Origin: a virus
IMG/VR virus record: IMGVR_UViG_3300010430_006937
Coordinates: 1-30,576 of that record
Strand: one strand, 5' to 3'
DNA: 30,576 nucleotides
A program made the position numbers and the translations under genes. Position 1 is the stretch's first letter. The number at the start of each line of letters is the position of its first letter. Positions 1-24,742 of the stretch are shown here, piece by piece. The notes beneath the pieces were generated by a model. It made no database searches. It had not been told where the DNA came from and saw only the letters and a list, made by a program, of their open reading frames with translations.

Positions 1-99
1 CTCGGGTGCCTCCGCCTCGGGTGCCTCCGCCTCGGGTGCCTCCGCCTCGGGTGCCTCCGCCTCGGGTGCCTCCGCCTCGGGTGCCTCCGCCTCGGGTGC
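1..99. repeat. Perfect 15-nt tandem repeat, about 6.6 copies
   Basis: The unit ctcgggtgcctccgc is repeated without a mismatch from the first base to about 99. On the minus strand it encodes Glu-Ala-Glu-Ala-Pro in the tail of the ParB-like protein. Identity at the DNA level suggests recent slippage expansion. The array is cut by the window edge, so its true copy number is unknown; such arrays also commonly break assemblies. Confidence 0.95.
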
Positions 100-2043
100 G
101 GTGTCGGTCATCCACTGGTCGCGCCGGTAGGCCGCACCGCGCAGGACGGCAGGCAACCAGCGTTTGCCATCGAGTTCCCGTGCGGCGCGGGCGACGGAAT
201 TGTCGTGTGTTGTTTTCCGGATCACGTCCGCCGCCTTGACGGCACCGACGCTCAACGCCGCGTCTGCCAGTTGCGCCTTCGTCAGATGCTGCAGCCAGTC
301 GGTGTCGGCCTGCCAGTGGTCGCGCATGTCCACGTCAGCCGCGTCTGCCAGTTGGGACACGAGATGCGGCATAGTCGAACCGGTGTGCTGGTCGATGCTG
401 TTGCCGGATTTCAACATTGTAGCGACCAGCTTCGCCAGCAGTGCCGCCTTGTCGTGCTGCTGCATGGTGCGAACGGTCGCGAGCACATCAGAGAAGGTCG
501 ATCCGTCAACAGCGAGTGCGGCAGTGCTGGCCGTGTCGTTGAGTTCGCGGAAGGTCTCGCCGCGCGGGCTGTGGTGCAGATTGCCGTTCAAGTGCATGGG
601 CGCTGCGCAATAACCGGGCCTGATCTCGCAGATGATGGTGGCCAGCATCACGTCATATGCGAGGGCGTGGTTTTCGGCGATTGCCATTTTCACGGCGAGG
701 GCGTGGTCGTCCAGGAGTTGCGCGATGACGTGCGCCTTGTAGTCCGTCAATCCGGTTTCTTCGGGTTCCTCGCCGTGATCGGTGACGCTGGCGGCGGGCG
801 GTGCGCTGGACAGTGCCGGGTGGTCAGTGCCGGTGCCGCGCTTCTGATCCGCTGCCATCTTCGCGGCCATCATGGCAGCGTAATCCTTGGGCTTCCACCA
901 GCCACGCTCGACGACATAGCCGCGCCCGGTCTTGTCGTGGGCATGGTGTTGCAGTTCGCGCACGATGATACCAAGGCGCGGGCGCATGTCGTTCCCTTCG
1001 TCGTCCGTCCAGCGCATGTTGCGGGTTTCGATGGCGTCGATCTGGACGCTTATTTCGCGATCCTTGGCGTCGTGCCTCTCTGTCCATTCGGACCAGTTCT
1101 CTTGCAGGTCGTTCCTCTCCTGCTCGAGCTTGTCGATTGCCTCCTGTTCTTCGTCCGGCAGCGGGCCGTGGTCAGGATAGGCGCGTTTCTCGTCGTTTTG
1201 GTCCTCGGTGGCGAACCGGACTTCGGACCATCCCCAACCCTCCGCCTGGCAAATCTCGGCGGCAATTTCTTCCATGGTGTTACGTGCGAGGGTGATAGCG
1301 ATTTTCCTGTCGAGCCATGTCTGTTCCCGGTTGCTGAACAAGTCCGCGCGGATGGTTCCGCCAGCGTCGAGATACGCCTGCTCTGTTGCGATCCGCGCGA
1401 TCGGCGAGGTGGGGCTGAGGTCGTGTTTCGCCAAGGCAAACCGGATGACGTGTTCGGTTTGCTGGCAAGCCCGGTCGATGCCTCCCCATTCCTCGATCAG
1501 ATCGACCTGTTCACCGACGTTCGTGGCAGTGGTGAACGCCTTGGCCTGTTCCATGGTCAGGCGACCGATGCGCAGGGCTTCGCGCAGCGGTTCGGCGAGG
1601 CCAGCAAGGGCGAGGCGCTGGTTGATGTAGCGGGTCTCGGTTCCGAACCGCTTGGCGATGGCTTCGGGGGCGTATCCGGCCACGACAAGCGCGGTGAATG
1701 CCTCGAACTGGTCAACCGGGTTCATCGGCAGCTGGGTGATGTTCTCGGCCAGCGAGATTTCGCGGGCGGTGCCGTCGTCATGCTCGGTGATCTGGCAGGA
1801 GACCACGACCGTTGCCGGGTCGGTGCCGTCCTGCAGCGCGATCCGCTCCAGTGCCAGCAGGCGGCGCTGTCCGGCTGTCACCGCCCAGGTATTGCCATGC
1901 TTGCGCACGGTGAGCGGCTGGATAAGGCCATGGGATCGGATCGAGGCCATCAGCTGCTCGAGGTCGGTGTCAGCCTCGCAGACGCGGGCGTTCATGGCAT
2001 CGACTTCGAGCTGATCGAGGGTGATTGCGGTTATCTTGGACAT
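1..2043 (-). CDS. ParB-like partition/DNA-binding protein, C-terminus cut by window edge
   Basis: The reading frame is open from ATG at 2043 to the window edge (681 codons, no stop), preceded by a good AAGGGA ribosome site. Residues ~1-110 look like a ParB N-terminal domain: an AGQRR motif at 57-61 matches the ParB GERR-type box and EISLAEN lies at 95-101. Residues ~122-150 resemble the ParB helix-turn-helix (YAPEAIAKRFG). The remainder is long, as in the ~650-700-residue ParB/RepB/Spo0J-family proteins of alphaproteobacterial plasmids and phages, including a WLPAVLR-type motif near residue 635. Residues 649-681 are a perfect Glu-Ala-Glu-Ala-Pro repeat. No ParA partner is visible. It is the last visible gene of the leftward operon. 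It may act in partition of an episomal prophage or as a regulator; family assignment is firm, role is inference. Confidence 0.85.
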   Translation of the reverse strand, partial: MSKITAITLDQLEVDAMNARVCEADTDLEQLMASIRSHGLIQPLTVRKHGNTWAVTAGQRRLLALERIALQDGTDPATVVVSCQITEHDDGTAREISLAENITQLPMNPVDQFEAFTALVVAGYAPEAIAKRFGTETRYINQRLALAGLAEPLREALRIGRLTMEQAKAFTTATNVGEQVDLIEEWGGIDRACQQTEHVIRFALAKHDLSPTSPIARIATEQAYLDAGGTIRADLFSNREQTWLDRKIAITLARNTMEEIAAEICQAEGWGWSEVRFATEDQNDEKRAYPDHGPLPDEEQEAIDKLEQERNDLQENWSEWTERHDAKDREISVQIDAIETRNMRWTDDEGNDMRPRLGIIVRELQHHAHDKTGRGYVVERGWWKPKDYAAMMAAKMAADQKRGTGTDHPALSSAPPAASVTDHGEEPEETGLTDYKAHVIAQLLDDHALAVKMAIAENHALAYDVMLATIICEIRPGYCAAPMHLNGNLHHSPRGETFRELNDTASTAALAVDGSTFSDVLATVRTMQQHDKAALLAKLVATMLKSGNSIDQHTGSTMPHLVSQLADAADVDMRDHWQADTDWLQHLTKAQLADAALSVGAVKAADVIRKTTHDNSVARAARELDGKRWLPAVLRGAAYRRDQWMTDTAPEAEAPEAEAPEAEAPEAEAPEAEAPEAEAPE

Positions 2044-2124
2044 GTTAATTTCCCTTCATGCTGTCCGGTTCCGTGCAGGGCGCACGATGGGCCAGCCGTT
2101 GCTATCCGGCTGGCCTGTGATGCG

Positions 2125-2331
2125 TCATGCGTCGGACTGGACCAGCAGTTCGTGCAGGTAGTCGGCGGCAGCGGCGGAGGCGTCGAGCGTTATCGATACC
2201 TCGGCCAACTCGAACTCGGTCAGGCGCGGGTCGTCGGCGGTGCGGACGGTGGCGACGGCGCTGTCCAAGACGGCGACGGCGTTGACCAGTGCCCAAGCCT
2301 GCGCAGTGGTCAGTGTCACGGTGTCAGTCAT
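2125..2331 (-). CDS. Small acidic hypothetical protein (68 aa)
   Basis: This short leftward ORF starts at ATG 2331 with an AAGGA motif about nine bases upstream and lies in the same direction as its neighbours, 81 bases before the ParB-like gene. The product is acidic and rich in Ala, Val and Thr, predicted helical, with no signal peptide or membrane segment. I do not recognise a family. Its place between the DUF2958 gene and the ParB-like gene suggests an early/accessory role, but no function can be assigned. Confidence 0.6.
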   Translation of the reverse strand: MTDTVTLTTAQAWALVNAVAVLDSAVATVRTADDPRLTEFELAEVSITLDASAAAADYLHELLVQSDA

Positions 2332-2367
2332 GGTTCGGGTTCCTTCGGGTGGATGAATGGAGAGGGT

Positions 2368-2727
2368 TCAGGCGACGATGCGGCGTTCTCTGGCGGCGTC
2401 GGTGGCATAGGCGCTCAGGTAGCGGTCGGGCGTGAACCAGTAGTCGCGCTCGATGCGGAGAAGTCCGGGGCCGCGCAGTGCCTCCAGTTCCTTGCGGGAG
2501 ACGTAGCCGAGTTCCGGTTCACCGTGGCCAAGGTCACAGAGACCGAACAGCACATCGGGGTTGGTCGGGTTCATTTCAGAAATCAGCCACGTAGCCGCGC
2601 CCCACGGGCAGAACAGCTTGACGACAGGTCGGCATTCGCGCGCCTTCCCGGTGCGTTCTTCATGCTCGGCGTTGCGTGTCCAGTTCGTGCGCAACGTGGT
2701 TTCTTGTGCCTTCGTGAAAAGCTTCAT
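2368..2727 (-). CDS. DUF2958 family protein
   Basis: This 119-residue protein starts at ATG 2727 with AGAAGGA upstream. It follows the DUF2958 pattern: an N-terminal LFTKAQ segment, a central VVKLFCPWGAATWLISEM stretch (~35-52), then GLCDLGHGEPELGYVSRKELEALRGP (~62-87) and an IERDYWF segment. DUF2958 proteins are small single-domain proteins common on plasmids, conjugative elements and phages, often near ParB-like and antirestriction genes; their biochemical activity is not established. It shares its direction and ribosome-site style with the ParB-like gene, consistent with an accessory operon. Confidence 0.8.
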   Translation of the reverse strand: MKLFTKAQETTLRTNWTRNAEHEERTGKARECRPVVKLFCPWGAATWLISEMNPTNPDVLFGLCDLGHGEPELGYVSRKELEALRGPGLLRIERDYWFTPDRYLSAYATDAARERRIVA

Positions 2728-2748
2728 TGTCTCGTCCTTCTGTTGGGT

Positions 2749-3045
2749 TCAGTCGTCCGCCAAGGCGCGGAGAATGTGGTGATCCGCAAGGGTTTGCGTC
2801 CTGCCGTCCGCCAGCTTGCGAACGGTTGCCAGATGCCCGCCACGGGCAACGAACGTGTTCTCGTACTGGCCAGCCGCCGTGCGCCGAGCGGCCCCGATTT
2901 CGCGCGGCAGCCAAGCGGTGACGATGTGGCGGCGACCGTTCAGCGGGTGCGTAAAGATCGTGCCAATGGGGATGGTTCCGACCGCAACGGACCTGTTGCG
3001 GATCACGGCGCGGCGCTGCCGCTGTGGGGAGTACTGGTGAAGCAT
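2749..3045 (-). CDS. Hypothetical basic protein, first gene of the leftward operon
   Basis: This 98-residue protein starts at ATG 3045 with GGAGA about nine bases upstream and is the promoter-proximal gene of the left leftward operon. The N-terminus is rich in Arg and Gln; the middle reads as a compact beta-rich fold (VGTIPIGTIFTHPLNGRRHIVTAW, ~22-45), and the C-terminus is polar. No signal peptide, membrane segment or known catalytic motif is visible and I do not recognise the family. Being first after the divergent control region it could be regulatory, but that is only positional inference. Confidence 0.6.
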   Translation of the reverse strand: MLHQYSPQRQRRAVIRNRSVAVGTIPIGTIFTHPLNGRRHIVTAWLPREIGAARRTAAGQYENTFVARGGHLATVRKLADGRTQTLADHHILRALADD

Positions 3046-3099
3046 CGTGCGTTGTCTCCGGTGTGGTCAGGGTGCCGGATCATGCCGAACCGACAATTC

Positions 3100-3126
3100 A
3101 TAAATGGGCGACCATTTCCCATTTAT
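3100..3126. promoter_or_regulatory. Perfect inverted repeat, candidate operator
   Basis: The arms ATAAATGGG (3100-3108) and CCCATTTAT (3118-3126) are perfect 9-bp inverted repeats with a nine-base spacer. They centre about 1.3 helical turns apart or more, as for many dimeric repressor sites. A leftward -35-like TTGATA (3129-3124 on the minus strand) overlaps one arm, so binding here could block leftward transcription. No repressor gene is recognised nearby except possibly the ParB-like or first-operon protein. Confidence 0.45.
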
Positions 3127-3159
3127 CAAGAAGAAAATGCGCAATCTATGCCGCTTTTT

Positions 3160-3188
3160 TTGCAACAGACTGAAATCATTAAAATATT
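3160..3188 (+). promoter_or_regulatory. Possible sigma70-like promoter for the late operon
   Basis: TTGCAA (3160-3165) and AATATT (3183-3188) are separated by 17 bases; each matches four of six consensus positions. The predicted start (~3195) would lie only a few bases before the ATG at 3200, giving a nearly leaderless message, which weakens the call. Confidence 0.25.
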
Positions 3189-3199
3189 GGGTGGATATT

Positions 3200-3805
3200 A
3201 TGTCTAAGGACGCACCGAAGCCGCCCGCCGGGCTGTCTGGCATGGCCGCTGCGCTGCAAGGCGTGGTCGCCGGGCAGGACGCGGGCGATGACGAAACGAC
3301 CGGCGGCGAGCAGGTGTCGTTCGCGTTCGCCGAGCCGCCGGAACCGGACGAGATCGGGGCGAAAAGATCGGGGCCAGGACGGCCACCGGGTGCGAAGAAC
3401 AAGACGACGACCGAATGGGCGGACTACCTGAACGCCCGGTTCCGGTCGCCGCTGGTAGGCATGTCGCAGATCGCGGAGATGCACCCGTTAGCGCTGATGA
3501 GTTGGGGATTCGACAGCATCGAGAAGGCTTGCGCGTTCTGGCTCGGCTGCTGCCGCGAGGTCGCGCGATACCGGCATTCGCCGATGCCGATTTCAGCGCA
3601 GGTCGATGTAGGCGGACAGGTCGCCATCAGCTTCTCGGTCGGTGCGCCGCCGGAACCTGGACACGAACCCGGCAGGGTTTCGGATGCGGTAGAGACGACT
3701 TGGGCGACTGTGACGCCAGAAATGGAAGATGAGCAAATTCAAGGACTTAGCCGAAAGATGGCAACAGCGTTGGAAACCAACAGGTTGGAAGAAACAACTA
3801 AATGA
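3200..3805 (+). CDS. Probable small terminase subunit (TerS)
   Basis: This 201-residue protein is directly upstream of the terminase large subunit and opens the late operon. Residues 1-55 are Ala/Pro/acidic-rich and probably disordered. A GRPPGAKNK motif at 60-68 is the AT-hook-like element typical of phage small terminases and their DNA-binding relatives. It is followed by a helical core (~72-128) and a C-terminal tail. TerS recognises the packaging site and hands DNA to TerL. The start at 3200 is preferred over an upstream in-frame ATG at 3104 because the extra 32 residues are Lys/Arg/Phe-rich and encoded by the AT-rich control region; the ribosome site (GGGTGG) is only fair. The role rests on position plus motif, not on a firm family match. 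Confidence 0.6.
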   Translation: MSKDAPKPPAGLSGMAAALQGVVAGQDAGDDETTGGEQVSFAFAEPPEPDEIGAKRSGPGRPPGAKNKTTTEWADYLNARFRSPLVGMSQIAEMHPLALMSWGFDSIEKACAFWLGCCREVARYRHSPMPISAQVDVGGQVAISFSVGAPPEPGHEPGRVSDAVETTWATVTPEMEDEQIQGLSRKMATALETNRLEETTK

Positions 3806-4035
3806 TTGATATTGCTCACACTTTCTACAGCAGACCGGCGGACTTCCTCTCCGCTGTCGTTCGTTCTGCCCGGCAGCGGCCAGCGGCAGCTGGCAGCGCC
3901 GCGCCTCCGCCGAAACCGCCGACCAGCTGCAGGGCTTCGGAAAAGAGGCACCGGGGGGGGGCCTCGGCCTCACGCCTTCCTGCGGGTCTGTGTGAGGATT
4001 TTTCAGTCGTCGGCGATTCAGGAGAGGCACAGTGA
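3802..4035 (+). CDS. Doubtful small ORF bridging TerS and TerL
   Basis: A 77-codon ORF begins at ATG 3802, overlapping the TerS stop (ATGA), and ends at TGA 4033-4035, overlapping the TerL GTG start (GTGA), so it fills the TerS-TerL gap exactly. The product is Ala/Pro/Arg/Ser-rich without a recognisable domain. Against coding: its composition is unlike the neighbours, it contains a nine-G homopolymer (3953-3961), and it spans two hairpins, one followed by a T-run. It may be a non-coding leader for terL rather than a gene. I keep it because both overlaps match the coupling pattern of the operon. Confidence 0.3.
   Translation: MIDIAHTFYSRPADFLSAVVRSARQRPAAAGSAAPPPKPPTSCRASEKRHRGGASASRLPAGLCEDFSVVGDSGEAQ
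3879..3894 (+). other. Small stem-loop in the TerS-TerL gap
   Basis: GCCAGC (3879-3884) pairs perfectly with GCTGGC (3889-3894) around a GGCA loop. It lies in the middle of a GC-rich, repetitive stretch (agcgg/ggcag words), upstream of the T-run hairpin that precedes terL. Confidence 0.4.
3968..4003 (+). terminator. Terminator-like hairpin upstream of terL
   Basis: CCTCACGC (3968-3975) can pair with GTGTGAGG (3990-3997), with one G-T wobble and a 14-base loop, and is followed by ATTTTTC. The form matches a modest intrinsic terminator or attenuator 29 bases before the terL start. If it acts, it would lower terL expression relative to upstream transcription or demand antitermination. Confidence 0.45.
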
Positions 4036-5540
4036 GCGCGAGGAAAACTAGGGGCCTCGCAATGGGGCGTGGGGTAGAGATCAACCTCAAGACGACGGGT
4101 CCGGTGTCGAACGCCTATTTCTGGACGAATGCGCTGCTGGCGGCGATCATCGGTCCGGTCGGGTCCGGAAAGACCTACACCAGTGTTCAGCGGGCGATCT
4201 ACCGGGCGACCCTGATGCCGCGGAACCCTGCAGATGGCGCCAGATACTACCGGCTGGCCGTGTTCCGCCAGGACTACCGGACGCTATGGCGAACATCAGT
4301 TCGGTCATGGCAGCAGATCCTGCCGCCCGACAAGGTCGGTGAATGGCAAGGCGGGCAGAATCAGCCGGCGACGCATGTGATCTCGTTCAATGACGGCAAG
4401 GGCCCGGTCATCATGCAGGCCGATTTCATATCCATTCCGCAGGACACCAGCATCGAGGACGCGTTGCGAGGTTTCGAGGCTACCGATGGCTGGATCAACG
4501 AGATCGACACGGAACGAAAGGAACTTGTCGAAGCGCTGTACGGCCGTCTCGGCAGGTTTCCGCCGGCAAGCTGGGGCGAGAAGCCGCCGCCGCAGCTGTG
4601 GGGCGACATGAACATGCCTGTCGTGACCAACTGGGCCTACCAGTATTTCGTCAAGAGCGATAACCCGGACGTGGCCTGCTACATTCAGCCGGGCGGCATG
4701 GACCCGGGTGCAGAGAACCTGGAGAACCTGCCGGGCGGGCGTGAATACTATCTCCGACAGATGGCGGTGACGACTGACACAAGGCAGGTCAGCCGGATGG
4801 TTCACAACCGTCCCGGATATCCGTCCAATTCCAAGGCGATATACGGCGACTTGATCAACTCCGAGTTCCATGTTTCGAAAGTGAAAATCGCTCCGCATCC
4901 GAGGCTTGCGTTGCGTCTTGGCGTCGACGGGGGACGCACACCGGCCGTCGTGATCCTGCAGTTTCATCCTGATGGTCGGGTGTGGGTGCTGGGAGAAATC
5001 ATCGGCGAGAATGTCGGTGTCGATGCGTTCAGCCTGCAGGTCATGAAAGACCTGCAGGAGAGGTACGGCGGAACCCGGCTCATGCCACCGGAAGGTGCGT
5101 GGCATGACCCCTCAAACGATTTCGCGTCGGCGCAGCCGGGGGTCACAGAGACCGGCGAAGAAGCAACCTGGATGGAAGAATTCGAGAAGCTGACAGGTAT
5201 CCCGTCGCAGTCGGCGCGGGGTGAAAACCGGTTGGTGATCCGCGACCAGGCCATCGAAACCCGTCTGACCAGCAACATCAACGGGCAACCGTCGGTGCTC
5301 ATTGATCCTTCGTGCAACAACGTGATTGAGGGACTCGCTTTTGGCTACCAGACCGCGCGGGTCACAAGCGAGAACAGTGCCAGCAGCAGGCTGAAGAACA
5401 ACTATTCGCATCCGGTCGAGGCCCTGCAATACGGACTGCTGTCCGACGATGCGGAAATCACCGTGCTGTCGGAACGGTCCAACGTGCGGCCGCCTCAAGA
5501 CTTGATCGTGGAGGATGAATATGATCCTCTCGCGTTCTGA
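4032..5540 (+). CDS. terL: Terminase large subunit (TerL)
   Basis: This is the 502-residue packaging motor ATPase/nuclease that translocates DNA into the prohead and cuts the concatemer. The ATPase domain has a Walker A GPVGSGKT at 41-48, a Walker B-like GWINEID at 153-159 and a coupling-type GDMN at 191-194. The RNase H-like nuclease domain has LGVDGG (Asp299), HDPSND (Asp359) and SHPVEALQYG at 459-468, where Glu463 takes the place often held by Asp. The GTG start at 4032 is chosen because GGAGAGG sits just upstream; an ATG at 4062 lacks such a site. Length is normal for the family. The order terS-terL-portal-scaffold-capsid differs from T7 (terminase genes last) and resembles BPP-1-like podoviruses. 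Confidence 0.93.
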   Translation: MSARKTRGLAMGRGVEINLKTTGPVSNAYFWTNALLAAIIGPVGSGKTYTSVQRAIYRATLMPRNPADGARYYRLAVFRQDYRTLWRTSVRSWQQILPPDKVGEWQGGQNQPATHVISFNDGKGPVIMQADFISIPQDTSIEDALRGFEATDGWINEIDTERKELVEALYGRLGRFPPASWGEKPPPQLWGDMNMPVVTNWAYQYFVKSDNPDVACYIQPGGMDPGAENLENLPGGREYYLRQMAVTTDTRQVSRMVHNRPGYPSNSKAIYGDLINSEFHVSKVKIAPHPRLALRLGVDGGRTPAVVILQFHPDGRVWVLGEIIGENVGVDAFSLQVMKDLQERYGGTRLMPPEGAWHDPSNDFASAQPGVTETGEEATWMEEFEKLTGIPSQSARGENRLVIRDQAIETRLTSNINGQPSVLIDPSCNNVIEGLAFGYQTARVTSENSASSRLKNNYSHPVEALQYGLLSDDAEITVLSERSNVRPPQDLIVEDEYDPLAF

Positions 5541-6054
5541 CGCCATTCCCCCCGGCGGACTATTCTGCGACGGCTTCAACATGTCGTCGGTTATCGAGGT
5601 CTGCCGGAACATGCGGGAATGGGATCGCCGCGAAATCTTCGCCCTGCGCGAATATGACAGCGCCATGGATCTGGCCATGGAGATCTACGCGCTGAGGCGG
5701 CAGTTCACGCTTTTCAACATCCTTCGCACGCACGAAGCGGGTCCGGCCGTCGCCGTGTTCGGCGTTGTTCCGCGCCATCCAGGCGTCGCAACGGTGGGGC
5801 TTTTCGCAACACCGGAATTTTCCCGGATCGCCGCGGCGACCGTCTTCTGGATCAGGGAGCACGTGCGCTGGCACCTGTTCCGAAACACGGATCTGCACCG
5901 GCTTGAATGCAAGGTTCTTTGCGGCCACCGGTCGGCGGAGCGTTTCGTCAGGTACTGCGGGGCCAGGTCCGAGGGTATCCGGGCGGCGATTGGGCGAAAT
6001 CGCGAGGACTATCAGGAATTTGTCTGGCTGCGATCTGAACTGGAGGCGATCTGA
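5521..6054 (+). CDS. GNAT-like / DUF2833-type virion-associated protein
   Basis: This 177-residue protein overlaps the end of terL by 20 bases. Start 5521 is preferred to ATG 5515 because GGAGG (5510-5514) lies six bases before it and directly abuts 5515. The fold pattern is GNAT-like: helix-rich N-terminus, strands around AVAVFGVVPRHPGVATVGLFATPEF, a helix with RIAAATVFWIREHV, then LECKVLCGHRSAERFVRYCGA, the segment where acetyltransferases bind CoA. Proteins of this type (DUF2833, similar to T7 gp13) sit next to the portal gene in many podoviruses and are often called acetyltransferases without proof. No clear acetyl-CoA pyrophosphate loop is visible. Confidence 0.6.
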   Translation: MILSRSDAIPPGGLFCDGFNMSSVIEVCRNMREWDRREIFALREYDSAMDLAMEIYALRRQFTLFNILRTHEAGPAVAVFGVVPRHPGVATVGLFATPEFSRIAAATVFWIREHVRWHLFRNTDLHRLECKVLCGHRSAERFVRYCGARSEGIRAAIGRNREDYQEFVWLRSELEAI

Positions 6055-6251
6055 TGTGCATGTTCGGTGGTGGGAAGCAGGATGCGATTGCCGCTCCGCG
6101 GATCAGTTCGGTCAATTCGGAAGACAATCGCCGGGCACAGGATGCCGAGGTGCGGCGGCGGCGCCGGGGTGGCATCGCCTCTCAGATCCTGACGAGCTCG
6201 CAGGGTGTGCAGGCGGTACCGCTGATCCAGCGCGCCGCATTGGGGGAATGA
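6054..6251 (+). CDS. Small Arg-rich phage head protein
   Basis: This 65-residue protein starts at the ATG overlapping the preceding stop (TGATG). It begins MCMFGGGKQ and has a central run of arginines (RRRRR near 35-39) followed by GIASQILTSSQGV. The layout, a Gly-rich start, helix with basic run, and short tail ending near a Leu-Gly, matches a small protein encoded beside the portal in many podoviruses. Its function is unknown; association with connector or head assembly is inferred from location. Confidence 0.6.
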   Translation: MCMFGGGKQDAIAAPRISSVNSEDNRRAQDAEVRRRRRGGIASQILTSSQGVQAVPLIQRAALGE

Positions 6252-6255
6252 CAGA

Positions 6256-7857
6256 ATGGCGTGGTCCGACAAGCATCTGATTGGCGTCTACAATCGACTG
6301 CTGCGCGATCGCGCAGAGCATGAGCCGATTTTCAACCTGATTGCGTCACTGTTGAGCCCGTGGCGTGGGGACTTCTCTACGGAAACCACACCCGGTCGCA
6401 ATCGAATGCTGAAGCTGTTTGATTCAACCGGGATCACGGCGCTCGACAATCTCACCGCCGGCCTGTACGGAACCACGACAAACGAAGCACAACGCTGGTT
6501 TTCGCTATCGCATCCTGATCCAGGTCTGATGAATATCGAACGGGTCAAGCAATACGTCCAGCTGGTCGAGTCGTGGGCCGTGCAGAGCTATGGGCCGGCG
6601 GTGTCCAACTTCTATGCGGCAGTTCCGCCGCTGTTCCGTGACGCGGCTGGTTTCGGGACTGGCGTGTTCTTCGAGGAAGAGATTCCGGGGCGGGGTGTCT
6701 TTTCCCGCTGCCGGCCGATCCGCGAGATCGTGTTCGAGGAAGATTCCTATGACGAGGTGGAAACGCTGATCCGCTGTTTCCGCCCGACCTACAGCCAGAT
6801 GGTCGGATACTACATGCCGCGCGCCGGAAAGGTTCCGGAGAAGCTGGCCGAACTGGCGCGGAAGTACCCGGAACGCAGATCGCGGGTCTATCACGGCACC
6901 TACATGAACCCGGACTGGAAGCCGGGGAAACTCGGGCCCGCAGGAATGCCGGTGCTGTCTCATCACGTTTGGGCCGAGTCCGAGACACGGCTTTACATGG
7001 GCGGATTCTGGCGGTTCCCCTGGTACGTGCTGCGCTGGTCGCGCGAGAACGATACGCCATGGGGGATCGGCCAGGGGCATCGGGCGTTGTCCGACGTCCG
7101 GATGCTTCAGGCCATGAAGAAAACCCAGCTGGAGGCCGGGCAGCGGGCGGCCAACCCGTCCTTGCTGGCAGTCGACAAGGATTCCCTGCAGACGCTGCGC
7201 ACCACACCGGGCGGCGTGACGGTCGGCGGGCTGGACAAGCGCGGCAATCCGCTTGTGAAGCCGCTCTATACCGGTCACCGCGCCGATATCCCATTGGAGC
7301 TGATGCAGGACACCCGCGAACAGATCAAGGATGCGTTCTATTTCTCCCTGCTGCAGCTCGTCGGGCGCAGCGGCATGACGGCAACGGAAGTGCTTGACCG
7401 GCAGGAAGAACGCATGCGGCTGATGGCGCCCCATGCCACGCTGATCAATCAGCATTTTGCGGCCAAGTCGGTCGCGCGGCGGGTCGATATGGGCGTTCGG
7501 AACGGTCAGCTGCCGCCGCCGCCGCCGGAACTGCAGCAACAGCCGCTGGTTGTCACCTTCCAGAGCGCGTTGCACCAGGCGATGAAGTCGGCGCAGGCAT
7601 CGTCGAGCGCGCGGCTGGTCGAGGATATCCTGCGGGCGACGGAACTGGACCCGGCCGCTGCGGATCTGTTCAACGGCGACGCGTTCGTGCGGCACATGCG
7701 CGAGGGCCGCGGTGCGCCGCCAGACCTGATCCTGGGCGACGACGTCGTCGCGCAGCGTCGCAAGGCGCGGGCGGAACGAGAACAGCAGCAAGCGGCACTC
7801 GACGTCGGACAGCAGGGCGCGAACATCGTGCAGCAGATGCAGAAGGCCGTGGCCTGA
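6256..7857 (+). CDS. Portal (head-to-tail connector) protein, T7-like
   Basis: This 533-residue protein belongs to the podovirus head-tail connector family (as T7 gp8). Recognisable parts are the N-terminal YNRLLRDRAEHEPIFNLIASLL helix, LTAGLYGTTTNEAQRWFSL (~66-84), DAAGFGTGVFFEEE, and the late stem segments LVGRSGMTATEVLDRQEERMRLMAP (~375-400). The C-terminus is a Gln/Ala-rich helix. Portals form a dodecameric ring at one capsid vertex through which DNA passes. A strong GGGGGA ribosome site precedes ATG 6256. Length is typical of the family. The gene ends with a TGATG overlap with the next gene. Confidence 0.93.
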   Translation: MAWSDKHLIGVYNRLLRDRAEHEPIFNLIASLLSPWRGDFSTETTPGRNRMLKLFDSTGITALDNLTAGLYGTTTNEAQRWFSLSHPDPGLMNIERVKQYVQLVESWAVQSYGPAVSNFYAAVPPLFRDAAGFGTGVFFEEEIPGRGVFSRCRPIREIVFEEDSYDEVETLIRCFRPTYSQMVGYYMPRAGKVPEKLAELARKYPERRSRVYHGTYMNPDWKPGKLGPAGMPVLSHHVWAESETRLYMGGFWRFPWYVLRWSRENDTPWGIGQGHRALSDVRMLQAMKKTQLEAGQRAANPSLLAVDKDSLQTLRTTPGGVTVGGLDKRGNPLVKPLYTGHRADIPLELMQDTREQIKDAFYFSLLQLVGRSGMTATEVLDRQEERMRLMAPHATLINQHFAAKSVARRVDMGVRNGQLPPPPPELQQQPLVVTFQSALHQAMKSAQASSSARLVEDILRATELDPAAADLFNGDAFVRHMREGRGAPPDLILGDDVVAQRRKARAEREQQQAALDVGQQGANIVQQMQKAVA

Positions 7858-8165
7858 TGGCGGCCAGGACAAGTGCGCTGAACTGGGTGCTCGGCCTCTA
7901 CGGCAAGCGCGGTGCGGTTGCGGTCTGCCAAGCATACCAGCGGGCTTTCGCCGACAATCACATCGTGCTCGCGGATCTCGCGCGACTCGGTTTCGACCGG
8001 GAAACCCCGTTCATACCGGGAGACACCACGACAACGGCTTTCAACTGCGGAATGCAGGCCATGTGGTTCCATATCCGCGACCGACTGGACCTGACGTCCG
8101 AAGAAATCGAGGCGGCAGAGCGAGATCTGCTGCGATTCCAGACACAGGAGAATCACGATGGCTGA
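7857..8165 (+). CDS. Bbp19-like phage protein
   Basis: This 102-residue protein starts at the ATG overlapping the portal stop. The segment from ~23 to 80 (YQRAFADNHIVLADLARLG, ETPFIPGDTTTTAFNCGMQAMWFHIRD) follows the pattern of the Bbp19-like domain found next to portal and scaffold genes in Bordetella phage BPP-1-like and related podoviruses. Its role is not established; the conserved position suggests head assembly. It overlaps the scaffold gene by eight bases. Confidence 0.7.
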   Translation: MAARTSALNWVLGLYGKRGAVAVCQAYQRAFADNHIVLADLARLGFDRETPFIPGDTTTTAFNCGMQAMWFHIRDRLDLTSEEIEAAERDLLRFQTQENHDG

Positions 8166-9009
8166 AGAAAACGGAAACCCGGCAACCACAACCATGACCG
8201 GCGGCGAGGGCGGCGGAGGCGAGGGCGGCGGAGGCGAGGGCGGGGGCGGTGCCTGGTACGAAGGACTGGGGCTGAACGAAGCGCAGACTGCCGTGATCGA
8301 GAAGAACGGGTTCAAGTCCGGTGCGGACGTGGTGACGGCTTACGACAAGCTGTCAACGCGGGTCGGGAGCAGCCTTCCCGCCGTGAAGGACGGTGACGTG
8401 AAGAACTGGGACGGCTGGAAGGAACTCGGCGTGCCGGAGAAGCCTGACGGATACGAACTGGCCAACCCGGAGGGCCTGCCGGAAGGGTTCGAGATCGACA
8501 ATGCCCGCCTGGAGGCATTCCGGGCGGTGGCACACGAGAACAATGTACCGCCGCACGCTGTTGCTGCGCTGTATGACTGGTACGTCAAGGACAGCGCCGG
8601 CAGTTTCGCCAGCGGCATGGCGTCGGTGAAGGAACAGACGGAGGCCTATAAGGCGGCGCTGGAACAGGAATGGCCCGGTGAGACAGACGGCGCGCTGGAT
8701 ATTGCCCGGCGCGGGTTCGCCTGGCTCGGGTTTGACAGCGAGGCCCTGAAGGATCTCGAAAGCGTCGTCGGCGGTGTGGCGCTGACCAAGGCGCTGCACA
8801 AGCTCGGCAAGGAACTCGGCGAGGATGGCGGCGGCATGACGGGCGGCGGCGACATGACCGCCGACGAGGCCAGTGAGCAGCTGGCAGCGTTGAAGGACGA
8901 CAAGGAATTCCAGGCCGCATTCCGGACGGCCGGTCATCGCGACCATGACGCTGCAGTGGAGAGGTACAACAAGCTCTCATTGCTGGCGAAAGCGAAAAAC
9001 GCGAATTAA
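8158..9009 (+). CDS. Scaffolding protein
   Basis: This 283-residue acidic, highly helical protein lies between the connector genes and the capsid gene, where the scaffold is expected. After a Gly-rich linker (residues ~15-32, EGGGG units) come YEGLGLNEAQTAVIEKNGFKS and a WDGWKELGVPEKPDGYEL segment; this pair is characteristic of podovirus scaffolds (helical QxGW-like segment then GVPExPDxY). The C-terminal region (TADEASEQLAALKDDKEFQAAF, then LLAKAK) resembles the basic capsid-binding end of scaffolds. It directs prohead assembly and leaves before maturation. The ribosome site AGGAGA precedes ATG 8158. Confidence 0.85.
   Translation: MAEENGNPATTTMTGGEGGGGEGGGGEGGGGAWYEGLGLNEAQTAVIEKNGFKSGADVVTAYDKLSTRVGSSLPAVKDGDVKNWDGWKELGVPEKPDGYELANPEGLPEGFEIDNARLEAFRAVAHENNVPPHAVAALYDWYVKDSAGSFASGMASVKEQTEAYKAALEQEWPGETDGALDIARRGFAWLGFDSEALKDLESVVGGVALTKALHKLGKELGEDGGGMTGGGDMTADEASEQLAALKDDKEFQAAFRTAGHRDHDAAVERYNKLSLLAKAKNAN
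8202..8249. repeat. Three-copy 15-nt Gly-rich repeat in the scaffold gene
   Basis: About three copies of a ggcgagggcggcgga-like unit encode Gly-Glu-Gly-Gly-Gly in the N-terminal linker of the scaffold. The third copy has diverged (gggcgggggc). It is a likely slippage-derived flexible linker. Confidence 0.7.
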
Positions 9010-9046
9010 ATCATTTGCGATTTGTCGAAGTGCGGCAATACGATCC

Positions 9047-9080
9047 GGGGCGTCGGGTAGTCCGTCGCCCCGTTTCTTTT
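9047..9080 (+). terminator. Intrinsic terminator between scaffold and capsid genes
   Basis: GGGGCG (9047-9052) pairs with CGCCCC (9066-9071). After one T-T mismatch, CGG (9054-9056) pairs with CCG (9062-9064) around a five-base loop. The stem is followed by GTTTCTTTT. This is a well-formed Rho-independent terminator just after the scaffold stop (9009). It would limit read-through into the capsid gene unless a new promoter follows. Confidence 0.7.
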
Positions 9081-9106
9081 GAAACCGGGCCGGGTCCGGC
9101 TACATG
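9079..9106 (+). promoter_or_regulatory. Possible promoter for the capsid gene
   Basis: TTGAAA (9079-9084) matches five of six -35 positions and is followed after 16 bases by TACATG (9101-9106), a weak -10. It lies immediately after the terminator and 115-140 bases before the capsid start, where a dedicated capsid promoter would be useful. The -10 is poor, so this is tentative. Confidence 0.25.
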
Positions 9107-9218
9107 CTGGCAAGACAGCACGCCCAGGCAGCGAGAAAAGCCAGGTAGGGTCCGGCATCGATCCGGGTAGTCCTTCTGAAAAAACCGTCACTTCAACACG
9201 GAAATTCAGGAGGCAGAG

Positions 9219-10109
9219 TTGCCCACAGCTGACGAAACACTCCACTACGGCACCACCTATACCGAGCATGTCGAGCACCTGCTGCAGCAGAAGACGTCCC
9301 GGTTCATGGACAAGTTCTCGACGCAGAGCTATCGCGGCGAGAACGCGGTGCCGGTCAAACAGTACGGCCAGGCCGAGGCGCAGGACGAAGATGACGTCTT
9401 TGGCGACACGCCGATCAACAGTGTCCCGCGCGAGCGCCGCTGGATCTTCCCGAAGCCGAAGATCGAGTTCGGTGAACTGCTGGCCGAAACGGATCTGGTC
9501 AAGGAACTGACCGACCCGACGAGCGATCTGGTGAAGGCGGGACACCAGGCGGTCTACCGCAAGCTGGATGACCGGCACATTTCGGCATTCTTTGCCGACG
9601 TGAAGGCCGGCAAGGAAGCCGGTGACACGACCATCAGCTTTCCGGCCACTCAGAAGGTCCTGTCGAGCGTCGGTGCCTCAGGTGCAACGGGGATGAACAA
9701 GGCCAAGCTCGATGCCGTCATCACCCAGTACCAGAAGAACGAGTTCGAATTCGATGAACCGATCTGGATGGCGATGTCCGCAACCGATCTCCAGGATCTG
9801 CGCACGCTCTACGAGGCCCAGGACAAGAACATCCGGGGATTCCGGTTCGACCAGAACGACGGGCTGGTCGGCTACCATCAGATCAACTTCATGCACTCCG
9901 AACGGTTGCTGACCAACGCCGGAGGCACCGAACGGCTGCTGCCCGTGTGGGTGCCGTCCGGAATGCAGATGGGGACATGGCTGCCGCTGAACACACAGGT
10001 CGGCCAGGACTCGACCAAGAAGTTCAACTGGCGGGTCTACATGTCGCAGATGGTCGGCGCCGTGCGCCTTCAGGAAGAAAAGGTGATGCAGGTCGCCGTC
10101 GCGGTGTGA
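9219..10109 (+). CDS. Major capsid protein
   Basis: This 296-residue protein follows the scaffold gene. Its features fit the HK97-fold-like capsid proteins of BPP-1-type podoviruses: an N-terminal helix (VEHLLQQKTSRFMDKF), FGDTPINSVPRERRWIFPKP (~68-88), LTDPTSDLVKAGHQAVYRKLDDRHISAFFADV (~97-130), a central helix pair, and a C-terminal WLPLNTQVGQDSTKKFNWRVYMSQMVGAVRLQEEKVMQV. The start is TTG at 9219, set by a perfect AGGAGG six bases upstream; no ATG or GTG is near. A rare start codon on what should be the most abundant virion protein is unusual. The gene is bracketed by strong hairpins at 9047-9080 and 10110-10153. Confidence 0.88.
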   Translation: MPTADETLHYGTTYTEHVEHLLQQKTSRFMDKFSTQSYRGENAVPVKQYGQAEAQDEDDVFGDTPINSVPRERRWIFPKPKIEFGELLAETDLVKELTDPTSDLVKAGHQAVYRKLDDRHISAFFADVKAGKEAGDTTISFPATQKVLSSVGASGATGMNKAKLDAVITQYQKNEFEFDEPIWMAMSATDLQDLRTLYEAQDKNIRGFRFDQNDGLVGYHQINFMHSERLLTNAGGTERLLPVWVPSGMQMGTWLPLNTQVGQDSTKKFNWRVYMSQMVGAVRLQEEKVMQVAVAV

Positions 10110-18789: not shown

Positions 18790-21326
18790 TGAGCGTCAAG
18801 TTCTGCGTCAACGGCAAGATCGGAGCGGGCAAGCTGGACGATACCCGCGGCACCCAGTTGCTCGACCTGGTCGACGAGCTGGAACAACAGTACCGGAGCA
18901 CCATGAGTGACGAGAGCGCTGCGCGACAGGCTGCGCTCGATGCGGCAGACATAGCCGAGAAGGAAGCTGCCCGGAAACGCCGCCTGGTCCGCCTGACTGT
19001 CACGGCACAGGCGCGGGCGCGGACACAGATTCTCAGCCACCCGAAAGGGCCGCGGTGGGGCGCGATCTCGATGTTGACGCGCGATATTTGGGAACTGGCG
19101 CCGTGGCACAACGTGGACAAGCTGCGGGCTGTCATCCGGGCAGAAGCGCATGCGCTGTTTGCCAAGGGGCTGGACACGCTGGGGCCGGGATTTCTCGGCA
19201 TCGAAGCCAGCCGCGCGCGGAACCGCGATATTCTGAAGGCGATCTTCGGCGAGGGTGACGCCAGCGCCGCTGCCGGCGACGTCGCGCGCAGCTGGAAGGC
19301 GACGACGGATCATCTGCGTCGGCGATTCAACAACGCCGGCGGCAACATCGGCGAGCTGGATACCTTTCACCTGCCGCAACGCCATGATGCCCTGAAGGTC
19401 GGGTCGGTCAGTTTCCAGGCATGGCGCGAGTTCATTCAGCCGAAGCTCGATCGGTCGCGGATGCTGGACACGCGCACAGGGCGCGTCCTGGACGATGCGC
19501 GGCTCGAGCTGGTGCTGCGCGAAGTCTATGAAAGCATCAGTACGGGTGGACTGTCGAAGACGCAGCCATCGGCGCAGGCGCGCGGGCGGGCGATGGCGAA
19601 CCGCCGCGGCGAGCAGCGGGTGCTGCATTTCAAGCGTGCCGACGACTGGATGGCCTATCAGCAGCAGTTCGGTACCGGCGGTGTGTTCGAGGTCATGACC
19701 GATCATATCGAGCGGCTGGCCAATGATGTTGCCTGGCTCGAGATCTTCGGGCCGAACCCGGCCGCAACACAAAGGTTCGTCGCGGATCTGATCGATCGCC
19801 ACGACGCGGCAGGCGGCGCCGGTGTGGATGTGCCCGTCGATGCCGACGGCAATCTGGTCAAGGGACCGGAGGCGCGGGCGGCGGCAAAGAATGCCAGGGG
19901 GCGCAACAAGCTTCTCAGCCCGATTGCCGACTGGCGCGACGTCTGGGATGACGTGTCCGGTGTCACCGCGTCACCGGCCAACCCCTCGCTTGCGCGGTCG
20001 GCGCAGAACGTCCGGTCATGGCTGGTGGCATCGCAGCTCGGCAGCGCCATGATTTCGGCGCTGTCGGACAATGTGACCAACATGCTGACCGGCTACATGA
20101 ACGGCATCCCGCCCGCGAAGATCCTCGGGCGCAGCATCAGGCAGATGGTGGAGCCGGGTGCGGAACTGAACGCGGTGGAGCTCGGCCTGCTGGGCGACGA
20201 CATGGCACGCATCGCCGGCGCGGCGTCGCGCTTCGGTGGCGAGATCCTGCACCGCAACACGATGAGCCGGATCGCCGACGTGACCTTGCGGGCCAGCCTG
20301 TTGCGGCGCTGGACGGCGGCCGGCCGACATGCCTTCGGCGTCGAGTTCTCGGCGCTGCTCGGGCGGAACCGCAATCAGGCGTTCCAGGATTTGCCGGACA
20401 TGCTGCAGCAGTCGTTCGAGCGTTACGGCATCGGGGCGGACCAATGGGACGTGATCCGCCAGGCGAAGCTATACGAACCGCAGGCCGGGGCGCGGTTCCT
20501 GCGCCCAATGGATGTGGCGGCCGTCAACGCCAGTGGGGCGCTGGACGCTGCACAGCAGCTGCACCGCATGGTGCTGCAGGAGATGGACTACGCCGTTGTG
20601 ACGACAGATCCGCTGACGCGGGCGATCTGGCACCGTGGCACCCAGGCGGGCACCGCCAAGGGCGAAGGCGCGCGGCTGGTGGCGATGTACAAGAGCTTTC
20701 CGACAACCGTGATCACGACGCACCTGATGCGGGCCACGATGCGGCCAACCACGGTAGGCAAGGTCGGCTATGCCGGAACCCTTTTCATCGGCATGACCCT
20801 GTTCGGGATGATGGCATTCCAGGCCAAACAGGTCTCGCGGGGCAAGGACCCGGTGACGACCGACCCATTGAAGCCGGAGGGCCGCGCGGCCTGGGCGGCG
20901 GCAATGCTGCAGGGCGGTGGCCTCGGCATCATCGGCGATTTTGCGTTCGCCGATCAGTCCAGATTCGGCAACGACCTCGCAGTGACGATCGCTGGCCCGG
21001 CCGCGGGACTGGCCGACGACGTGTTCCGTGACTTCATGGTGGCGAACATCCAGCGCGGCATCAGGGGCGAGGAAACCGACTTCGCGGGCGACGCACTCTG
21101 GCTGGCCACCCGGTACACGCCGGGATCCTCGCTCTGGTATCTGCGGCTGGCCCTCGAACGGGAGGTGTTCGACCAGGCCGCACTGATGATTGACCCGAAG
21201 GCTCCGCAGCGGTTCCGGCGGGCCCAGAGACGCGCCCGAAAGGATCTCGGTCAGCGGTACTGGTTGCCGCCGGGCCAGCATCTTTCAAGCGCGCGCCGCC
21301 CTGACTTCAGCGAGGTAGTCAAATGA
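18789..21326 (+). CDS. Large internal virion protein D-like (T7 gp16 C-terminal-like)
   Basis: This 845-residue protein has the conserved gp16-type C-terminal half: a mid-region AQNVRSWLVASQLGSAMISALSDNVTNM (~400-430), YKSFPTTVITTHLMRA, a membrane-like segment (VGYAGTLFIGMTLFGMMAFQ), and the hallmark end SSLWYLRLALEREVFDQAAL followed by RAQRRARKDLGQRYWLPPG. It is probably ejected into the inner membrane and cytoplasm at infection. T7 gp16 is longer (about 1,318) and starts with a lytic transglycosylase domain; none is visible here, so wall degradation must come from elsewhere. Overlaps are one base upstream and four (ATGA) downstream. Confidence 0.8.
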   Translation: MSVKFCVNGKIGAGKLDDTRGTQLLDLVDELEQQYRSTMSDESAARQAALDAADIAEKEAARKRRLVRLTVTAQARARTQILSHPKGPRWGAISMLTRDIWELAPWHNVDKLRAVIRAEAHALFAKGLDTLGPGFLGIEASRARNRDILKAIFGEGDASAAAGDVARSWKATTDHLRRRFNNAGGNIGELDTFHLPQRHDALKVGSVSFQAWREFIQPKLDRSRMLDTRTGRVLDDARLELVLREVYESISTGGLSKTQPSAQARGRAMANRRGEQRVLHFKRADDWMAYQQQFGTGGVFEVMTDHIERLANDVAWLEIFGPNPAATQRFVADLIDRHDAAGGAGVDVPVDADGNLVKGPEARAAAKNARGRNKLLSPIADWRDVWDDVSGVTASPANPSLARSAQNVRSWLVASQLGSAMISALSDNVTNMLTGYMNGIPPAKILGRSIRQMVEPGAELNAVELGLLGDDMARIAGAASRFGGEILHRNTMSRIADVTLRASLLRRWTAAGRHAFGVEFSALLGRNRNQAFQDLPDMLQQSFERYGIGADQWDVIRQAKLYEPQAGARFLRPMDVAAVNASGALDAAQQLHRMVLQEMDYAVVTTDPLTRAIWHRGTQAGTAKGEGARLVAMYKSFPTTVITTHLMRATMRPTTVGKVGYAGTLFIGMTLFGMMAFQAKQVSRGKDPVTTDPLKPEGRAAWAAAMLQGGGLGIIGDFAFADQSRFGNDLAVTIAGPAAGLADDVFRDFMVANIQRGIRGEETDFAGDALWLATRYTPGSSLWYLRLALEREVFDQAALMIDPKAPQRFRRAQRRARKDLGQRYWLPPGQHLSSARRPDFSEVVK

Positions 21327-24185: not shown

Positions 24186-24742
24186 CACTCACGACACCTG
24201 GCCGGGCGATGCTCAATGGCATCGGCGATGCGGCGGAGAAGACGGTCGGGTCGGGCGCGGGGCAACTGCCGACGAACGCGGATCTGCCCACATTTCTGGC
24301 GCAGGCCATAGCCAGCCAGGGCGAGGCGGAGGCGGGAAGCGAGAACACAAAGCGGATGACCGCGCTCAGGGTGGCGCAGGCTATCGCGGCGATGATACCC
24401 GCGCGCTTCACGTCATCACCTATCGTTGCCTCGACGCTGGCGACGGGGGACCAGACCTACAGCGCTGCCCATGGCTTCGGGGCCGAGCCGTTCGATGCTC
24501 TGGCCGTGCTGAAATGCACGACAACGGATCTTGGCTATCCGGTCGGGCAGTCGATCATCCTGCGCGACAACCTGACGAAGCTTTCCAGTTCGAGCATCTG
24601 GGGGGGGTTCTGGGTCGGCTATGATGCGACGAATATCTATGGCCATCAGGAAGACGGTATCCGGATCCCGCACAACTCGACCAAGCTGGTGACAGAGATC
24701 ACCTATGCCTCCTGGTCGCTCTATCTGAGGGCGGTGGCATGA
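24182..24742 (+). CDS. Tail-fibre/tail-tip-like protein
   Basis: This 186-residue protein carries an AEAGSENTKRMTALRVAQAI segment (~48-67), the common xAxAGxDNTxxMTPLRVxQAI motif that precedes receptor-binding parts of many phage fibres. Residues ~80-186 are predicted beta-rich (FDALAVLKCTTTDLGYPVGQSIIL, SSIWGGFWVGYDATNIYGHQ). It may be a second host-recognition or distal fibre protein. The start ATG overlaps the preceding stop, and its own stop overlaps the next ATG, so expression is coupled to the fibre genes. Confidence 0.65.
   Translation: MTLTTPGRAMLNGIGDAAEKTVGSGAGQLPTNADLPTFLAQAIASQGEAEAGSENTKRMTALRVAQAIAAMIPARFTSSPIVASTLATGDQTYSAAHGFGAEPFDALAVLKCTTTDLGYPVGQSIILRDNLTKLSSSSIWGGFWVGYDATNIYGHQEDGIRIPHNSTKLVTEITYASWSLYLRAVA

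Follow-up and report, generated by a model that had tools for sequence, protein, structure and literature searches.

The cos site of phage lambda adjoins its terminase genes. To our knowledge, few phages have packaging sites that have been worked out in detail, and such sites are seldom marked in the annotation of metagenomic phages. A lambda-type cos is built as cosQ, cosN and cosB over ~200 bp, comprising the cut site and a downstream part that is needed for packaging to start (PMC7617512, in excerpt). The cohesive end of lambda is GC-rich, and the pac site of P22 lies inside the TerS gene (PMC9611059, in excerpt for both). The TerS of PaP3, p01, has no domains by BLASTP and binds cos DNA specifically (PMC3488191 and PMC7672466, in excerpt).

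We have analyzed the terminase region of a virus record of 30,576 bases (here called the window). From comparison of related loci we consider it likely that the 3′ end of TerS, the gap between TerS and TerL and the first codons of terL together make up a cis-acting site in the DNA for the initiation of packaging, of cos or pac type. No such site is described in the titles and abstract openings surveyed, which come mostly from outside the subscription literature.

Organization of the terminase region

The gap between the putative TerS and terL is filled by an open reading frame that overlaps its neighbor by 4 nt at each end (Table 1). The start lies in an ATGA that overlaps the stop of the upstream ORF, and the end lies in a GTGA that overlaps the GTG start of terL. 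An earlier sequence-only reading of this DNA had reported the 77-codon frame with both overlaps, together with stem-loops, a run of nine G and a T run within the gap, and every one of these can be located. RNA folding places a further stem inside 3815-3862. The stem-loop formed by GCGGCCAGC and GCTGGCAGC is a predicted structure. The TCTGTGTGAGG sequence is common to the window and relatives such as L171.

Table 1. Features of the terminase region of the window (positions in window numbering)
Feature	Position	Strand	Basis or remark
TerS-like gene	3200..3805	+	position and iterated HMM; 3′ end holds the direct-repeat pair
Direct-repeat pair GTTGGAA / GTTGGAA, period 15	3769..3790	+	within TerS 3′ end; candidate TerS-binding repeats
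77-codon (77 aa) ORF	3802..4035	+	ATGA and GTGA overlaps
Stem-loop GCGGCCAGC / GCTGGCAGC	3876..3897	+	arms 3876-3884/3889-3897; predicted
Conserved downstream block: G core, CTGTGTGA stretch, T run, GCGCGA, GGGG motif	3949..4077	+	sole profile R1 match in window
G9 core	3953..3961	+	candidate center of packaging site
Second stem	arms 3968-3973/3992-3997		
TCTGTGTGAGG, A, then T5	3987..4003	+	T5 at 3999-4003; no terminator call
terL, terminase large subunit	4032..5540	+	phrog_2, E 1.2e-9; tblastn against BcepC6B TerL, 30%
GCGCGA	4036..4041	+	alignment of relatives
GGGG motif GGGGCGTGGGG in terL 5′ codons	4064..4074	+	102 nt past end of G core

On its own the region is unremarkable. Few stop codons are expected at such a base composition and open frames are therefore cheap (two were observed in the window gap against ~1.03 expected from shuffles), the fold of the whole gap is no better than that of shuffles (z −0.61), and a consensus terminator scan found none in the gap. 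Exact 4-nt overlaps alone are no proof of a gene. Four sub-stretches were folded, of which 3967-4006 was the strongest (z −3.1) and 3815-3862 the second (z −2.1). The stem at 3968-3997, in which 18 nt separate the 6-bp arms, is followed by ATTTTT and is absent from the list of the terminator scan. The T run, taken for terminator-like in the sequence-only reading, lies within a conserved block in which no terminator is called. There were no matches to Rfam covariance models at E up to 1 in window 3000-5000, and a scan for sigma-70-like promoters, the one type covered, found none in window 3200-4600. Runs of six or more G or C are rare in the window, with 3 observed and ~20 expected under a Markov-1 model, and a run of nine or more arose somewhere in the window in 0.35 of Markov-1 simulations. 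A second run, G8 at 24600-24607, is unmatched by the packaging-site profile described below. It is the comparative evidence that is decisive in indicating that the region exceeds chance.

Relatives of the locus

The window TerL is only ~30% identical to those of named phages, with best matches at 30-32%. Scans with TerL, portal and TerS as single proteins found as close relatives only 3300005588_000182 and 3300027828_000155, both of which are 100% identical to the window wherever they match. The first of these (L002) is identical over window 42-10087 (10,046 bases) and carries the same G9. The very end of the window record, at 1-99, is a perfect 15-bp tandem repeat of 6.6 copies; L002 also terminates inside this repeat, so that assembly stops in it. 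Tandem repeats of 21, 42 and 63 bp are also present at 22393-22571, within an ORF of 863 aa (21323-23914) whose product is perhaps a repetitive structural protein.

To collect wider relatives we scanned IMG/VR by alignment and genome contigs in a single scan, and more relatives exist than the matches listed. In a tree the window lies on a long branch inside a set of 36 rows (SH-aLRT 98) that contains a clade of 27 rows. We refer to this clade as LIENQ, a name taken from a peptide motif encoded by the frame in its gap. Among the matches listed we distinguished 66 distinct LIENQ loci, 20 other loci of gap type (the window included) and 13 of adjoining type, in which the Walker motif of TerL lies no more than 250 nt from the TerS stop. 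At least six matches are to genome contigs, and five of the six listed fall in the clade, namely a Rhodobacter MAG, Albimonas, Oceaniglobus, Pseudogemmobacter and Pacificibacter. Albimonas and Pacificibacter belong to the order Rhodobacterales, as do the other three. The sixth, a Nevskia MAG (Gammaproteobacteria), is in a looser group.

The window TerS has no useful relative of family or fold in PHROG, Pfam or PDB, and its identity is a prediction from position and a purpose-built HMM only. When this HMM was iterated from the TerS of L016 with the window left out, the window was reached in round 4 at E 1.5e-15, having been missed in round 1; with the window included E was 6.5e-20. By this measure the window protein joins the TerS family of its relatives. 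The alignment of that family (A6) contains the motif GRPxGAxN.

A G/C core and conserved DNA block

We counted runs of six or more G or C over the interval that begins 60 nt ahead of the TerS stop and extends to the Walker motif of TerL. All 66 LIENQ loci have such runs in this region (6.14/kb versus 0.356/kb over the remainder of the loci), as do 19 of the 20 other gap-type loci, window included (4.41 versus 0.128/kb), a density 17- to 35-fold above that found elsewhere. They occur within the 200 nt that follow the TerS stop in 66/66 and 18/20, respectively. The sole G7 on either strand of L101 (38.8 kb) and of L103 (35.9 kb) is that in the terminase gap; this holds for two of 20 records, most others having more, with up to 12 overlapping matches. 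No G/C run of six or more was seen on reading the terminase gap of BcepC6B.

Starting at the G core, the alignment of 54 loci contains CTnTGnGA(CC or GG), then a patch rich in T, followed by GCGCGA and TGGGGTnGGGGG. CGCGA occupies the corresponding alignment position in 37 of the 54 relatives, and 11 of these 37 rows lack a start codon where one usually stands (L115, L121, L130, L145, L204 and L237 are examples). Its retention where there is no start codon points to conservation of DNA rather than of codons. In those six rows of the alignment (A5) the terL start may be elsewhere.

We constructed a profile (R1), using sequence only, of the stretch from the G run to terL in 54 distant LIENQ loci, with the window excluded. 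It matches the window once over both strands of its 30.6 kb, at 3949-4077 (the conserved block of Table 1), with 29 bits and E 1.8e-8, where E-values are rough as a property of the tool. This is consistent with one site per genome, in a record that may be incomplete. Of 36 more distant loci, 31 have no match up to E 5; L116 alone gave a clear match (E 0.001), that of L161 is correctly placed but weak, and that of L022 lies elsewhere. In a further 46 loci, six that had served for training match their own site and other matches reach E 0.044. The profile therefore links the window to LIENQ. The link of the window to the looser relatives rests on the position of the run, the motif, the repeats and the order of parts. 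In L013 (human faecal phage record MT835618) there is a weak R1 match (E 0.058) at 79-128, where GGGGTCGGGGGAGTGAGCGG lies right at the terL start; this may represent a distant form of the site. The pattern GGGGGGG-TCTGTGTGA proved too strict, being found in only four of 248 loci.

A GGGG motif is part of the block. This is present 40-300 nt past the core in 62/66 LIENQ, 13/20 other gap-type and 7/12 adjoining loci, at densities of 5.89, 3.46 and 2.88/kb compared with 0.04-0.07/kb, and is absent from that interval in seven of the 20 other gap-type and five of the 12 adjoining loci. We sought the distance from the end of the G run to the motif in the range 70-140 nt. The pair was found in 65 of 66 LIENQ loci, of which 60 have a spacing of 93-103 nt with a mode of 101; the spacing in the window is 102 nt. 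It is nearly fixed despite a distance between TerS and TerL that varies from 113 to 418 nt. The placement of the motif relative to a start codon ranges from 152 nt before to 34 nt after.

Direct repeats and a covarying dyad

We searched around the TerS 3′ end for direct repeats of at least 7 bp with a period of 13-18. Pairs are found in 51/66 LIENQ, 16/20 other gap-type and 6/11 adjoining loci, compared with 15-19% of control windows, which leaves 15, four and five loci, respectively, with no pair by this criterion. Some of the pairs counted are of a different kind, such as those of L116 (period 18) and L148. The period in LIENQ is mostly 14, often with the sequence TCGGAC, and that in the others is 14-15 nt; the sequence of the repeat is lineage-specific and its spacing is constant. 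Since 14 is not divisible by three, repetition of codons provides no explanation. The pairs in or beside TerS are suggestive as predicted TerS-binding sites.

In LIENQ the repeats are followed by a dyad that exhibits compensatory changes. Six of its eight base pairs are altered on both sides (shuffled mean 4.3), and there are 55 double-change cells, compared with 22.0 on shuffling and no more than 24 when the dyad is slid. If only the inner two pairs are used as anchor, pairs 4, 5 and 6 are still clearly above shuffles. This covarying dyad was sought in the window and not identified there. A long-range pairing of CCGACCCCAT with ATGGGGTCGG, noticed by eye in LIENQ, is broken where GAGGCC replaces GACCCC and is not claimed.

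Position of the element relative to TerS

In the adjoining loci only one of 13 has a G/C run between TerS and TerL. Over the 400 nt that precede the open frame of TerS, runs occur in 10 of these 13 (4.20 versus 0.18/kb), in 21 of 62 LIENQ loci (0.88 versus 0.34/kb) and in two of 19 other gap-type loci (0.24 versus 0.13/kb). Several adjoining loci have the same order of parts, as judged by eye, and six of eight examined have the GGGG motif, at 67-152 nt ahead of the TerS start. Profile R1 itself matches weakly upstream of TerS (L110, E 0.016; L046, E 0.091), near the background of secondary matches. The element is thus found beside the terminase genes whichever gene follows, and its position upstream of TerS in the adjoining loci speaks against a leader of terL and in favor of a TerS-linked DNA site.

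The reading frame across the gap

The distance between TerS and TerL is 1 mod 3 in 56 of 66 LIENQ loci, a class that includes 25 distinct lengths. Among the 54 loci at less than 0.75 similarity the figure is 45 (nominal p 5e-14, ancestry ignored). An ORF of 50-130 codons that starts in NTGA is present in 57 of 66 gaps. Maintenance of frame through insertion and deletion was found in LIENQ only; in the 20 other gap-type loci, window among them, the frame is random (8/8/4).

The peptide gives a different result. Pooled over 13 LIENQ pairs at 64-99% identity, with members partly shared, pN is 0.150 and pS 0.133, so that no purifying selection is seen on it. One close pair, L179/L231, has pS (0.164) greater than pN (0.084), and GC3 of the LIENQ ORFs is slightly raised (0.735 versus 0.609 at position 2). 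The codon score of the window ORF does not reach the 5th percentile for real genes and is near the 95th for off-frame reading, and its GC by codon position is flat, so its codon usage is not gene-like. The 77-aa sequence has no relative in named phages (E up to 1), PHROGs or Pfam.

The similarity of pN and pS, the codon usage and the random frame in other loci together favor a bridge over a gene selected for its product. We conclude that translation of the ORF most likely forms a bridge over the site, and that its peptide would not be under selection. The simplest account is that in LIENQ ribosomes must cross the site, so that insertions and deletions preserve the frame and the peptide drifts. 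The arrangement in the window may be the same adaptation, or may have arisen by chance. The sequence-only reading had offered an unrecognized gene coupled to terL; the coupling is supported by conservation of frame in LIENQ, whereas selection for a product finds no support in pN, pS and the codons of the window.

Alternative explanations

A small gene translationally coupled to terS and terL, with a functional product, would explain why the frame is kept in LIENQ (56 of 66 gaps, or 45 of 54 at lower redundancy), why 57 of 66 gaps carry NTGA-started ORFs with slightly raised GC3, and why L179/L231 has pS above pN, and the window shows the same double overlap. We nevertheless hold this to be very improbable, given the pooled pN and pS of the 13 pairs, a window ORF outside the gene range in codon score and flat in GC, the lack of a relative in named phages, PHROGs or Pfam, and the 8/8/4 distribution of frame in the other gap-type loci. 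Similar doubt attaches to a structured RNA, the leader or attenuator raised in the sequence-only reading, as a control on expression of terL or the terminase, and we find this very unlikely. The covarying hairpin of LIENQ and the hairpin at 3967-4006 (z −3.1) with T5 after it would suit such an RNA, as would the fact that the element precedes a terminase gene wherever it is found. But the whole-gap z is −0.61, no terminator is called and Rfam gives no match. Moreover, other loci carry similar parts upstream of TerS, and the GGGG motif varies in place around start codons, being 67-152 nt before that of TerS in six of eight adjoining loci and inside terL codons in many of gap type. The repeats likewise lie inside TerS coding DNA in gap-type loci and upstream of the TerS ORF in others. 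The same reading had also suggested a packaging-related RNA. This was the closest guess as regards packaging, with the site placed in DNA instead of RNA.

On the evidence of sequence alone the main rival is a replication origin, which we have weighed together with a late promoter or regulatory region beside the terminase genes. Direct repeats resembling iterons, a dyad and a T-rich patch suit an origin equally well. However, in the loci where it was found the element is next to TerS, on one side or the other, which is what a TerS-bound site would be expected to show. A scan for promoters of the sigma-70-like type found none in window 3200-4600, and we regard this family of explanations as unlikely. 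Coincidence in a GC-rich spacer would draw on the rarity of stops, which makes open frames cheap, and on the occurrence of a run of nine or more in 0.35 of simulations. It is scarcely credible against an R1 match of E 1.8e-8 at the right place, a spacing of 102 nt as in LIENQ and a 17- to 35-fold enrichment of runs, and is already disfavored by the repeat pairs, the GGGG motif and the enrichment of upstream runs too.

A putative site for packaging initiation

A packaging-initiation site could function as follows, by analogy with known terminase systems (PMC7617512 and PMC9611059, in excerpt). TerS would bind the direct-repeat pair, the downstream GGGG motif or both, and TerL would cut at or near the G/C-rich core. 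A cut near the core would leave terL at one end of the packaged genome. On the branch of the window the site would be placed between TerS and TerL, and the open frame overlapping both genes would allow ribosomes to cross it, so that translation of terL stays coupled to that of terS. Contig ends near terL, read in 23 loci, have no common end point.

We judge it an even question whether this is a new class of phage packaging site. Such a class would combine a TerS-linked repeat pair, of 14-15 nt period and a sequence that differs among lineages, with a covarying dyad, a core of G/C homopolymer and, ~100 nt further on, a GGGG motif. It would change sides of TerS, and in one clade, where it comes between TerS and TerL, would be crossed by a frame-conserved bridge ORF selected for translation and not for product. 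With a signature recognizable across a broad group of phages and prophages, several of them in Rhodobacterales genomes, packaging strategy and the specificity of TerS for DNA might be read from sequence. The lineage-specific repeats would provide natural pairs of TerS and site with which to address specificity. The bridge ORF, if true, would be a frame kept for the passage of ribosomes and not for a protein.

Comparison with known systems

Like p01 of PaP3, the window TerS has no recognized domains, a resemblance that is drawn apart from homology or comparison of cos sequences. The likeness to lambda cos is one of layout, and not of compared sequence: the window has a GC core and then, ~100 nt on toward terL, the GGGG motif. 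In contrast to lambda cos, the candidate site separates TerS from TerL or, in relatives, is found upstream of TerS, and it has G/C homopolymers and a repeat pair inside TerS. As with the pac site of P22, the candidate site is partly within the coding sequence of TerS; unlike that site, its conserved block extends through the gap into terL, and in relatives its parts are found upstream of TerS.
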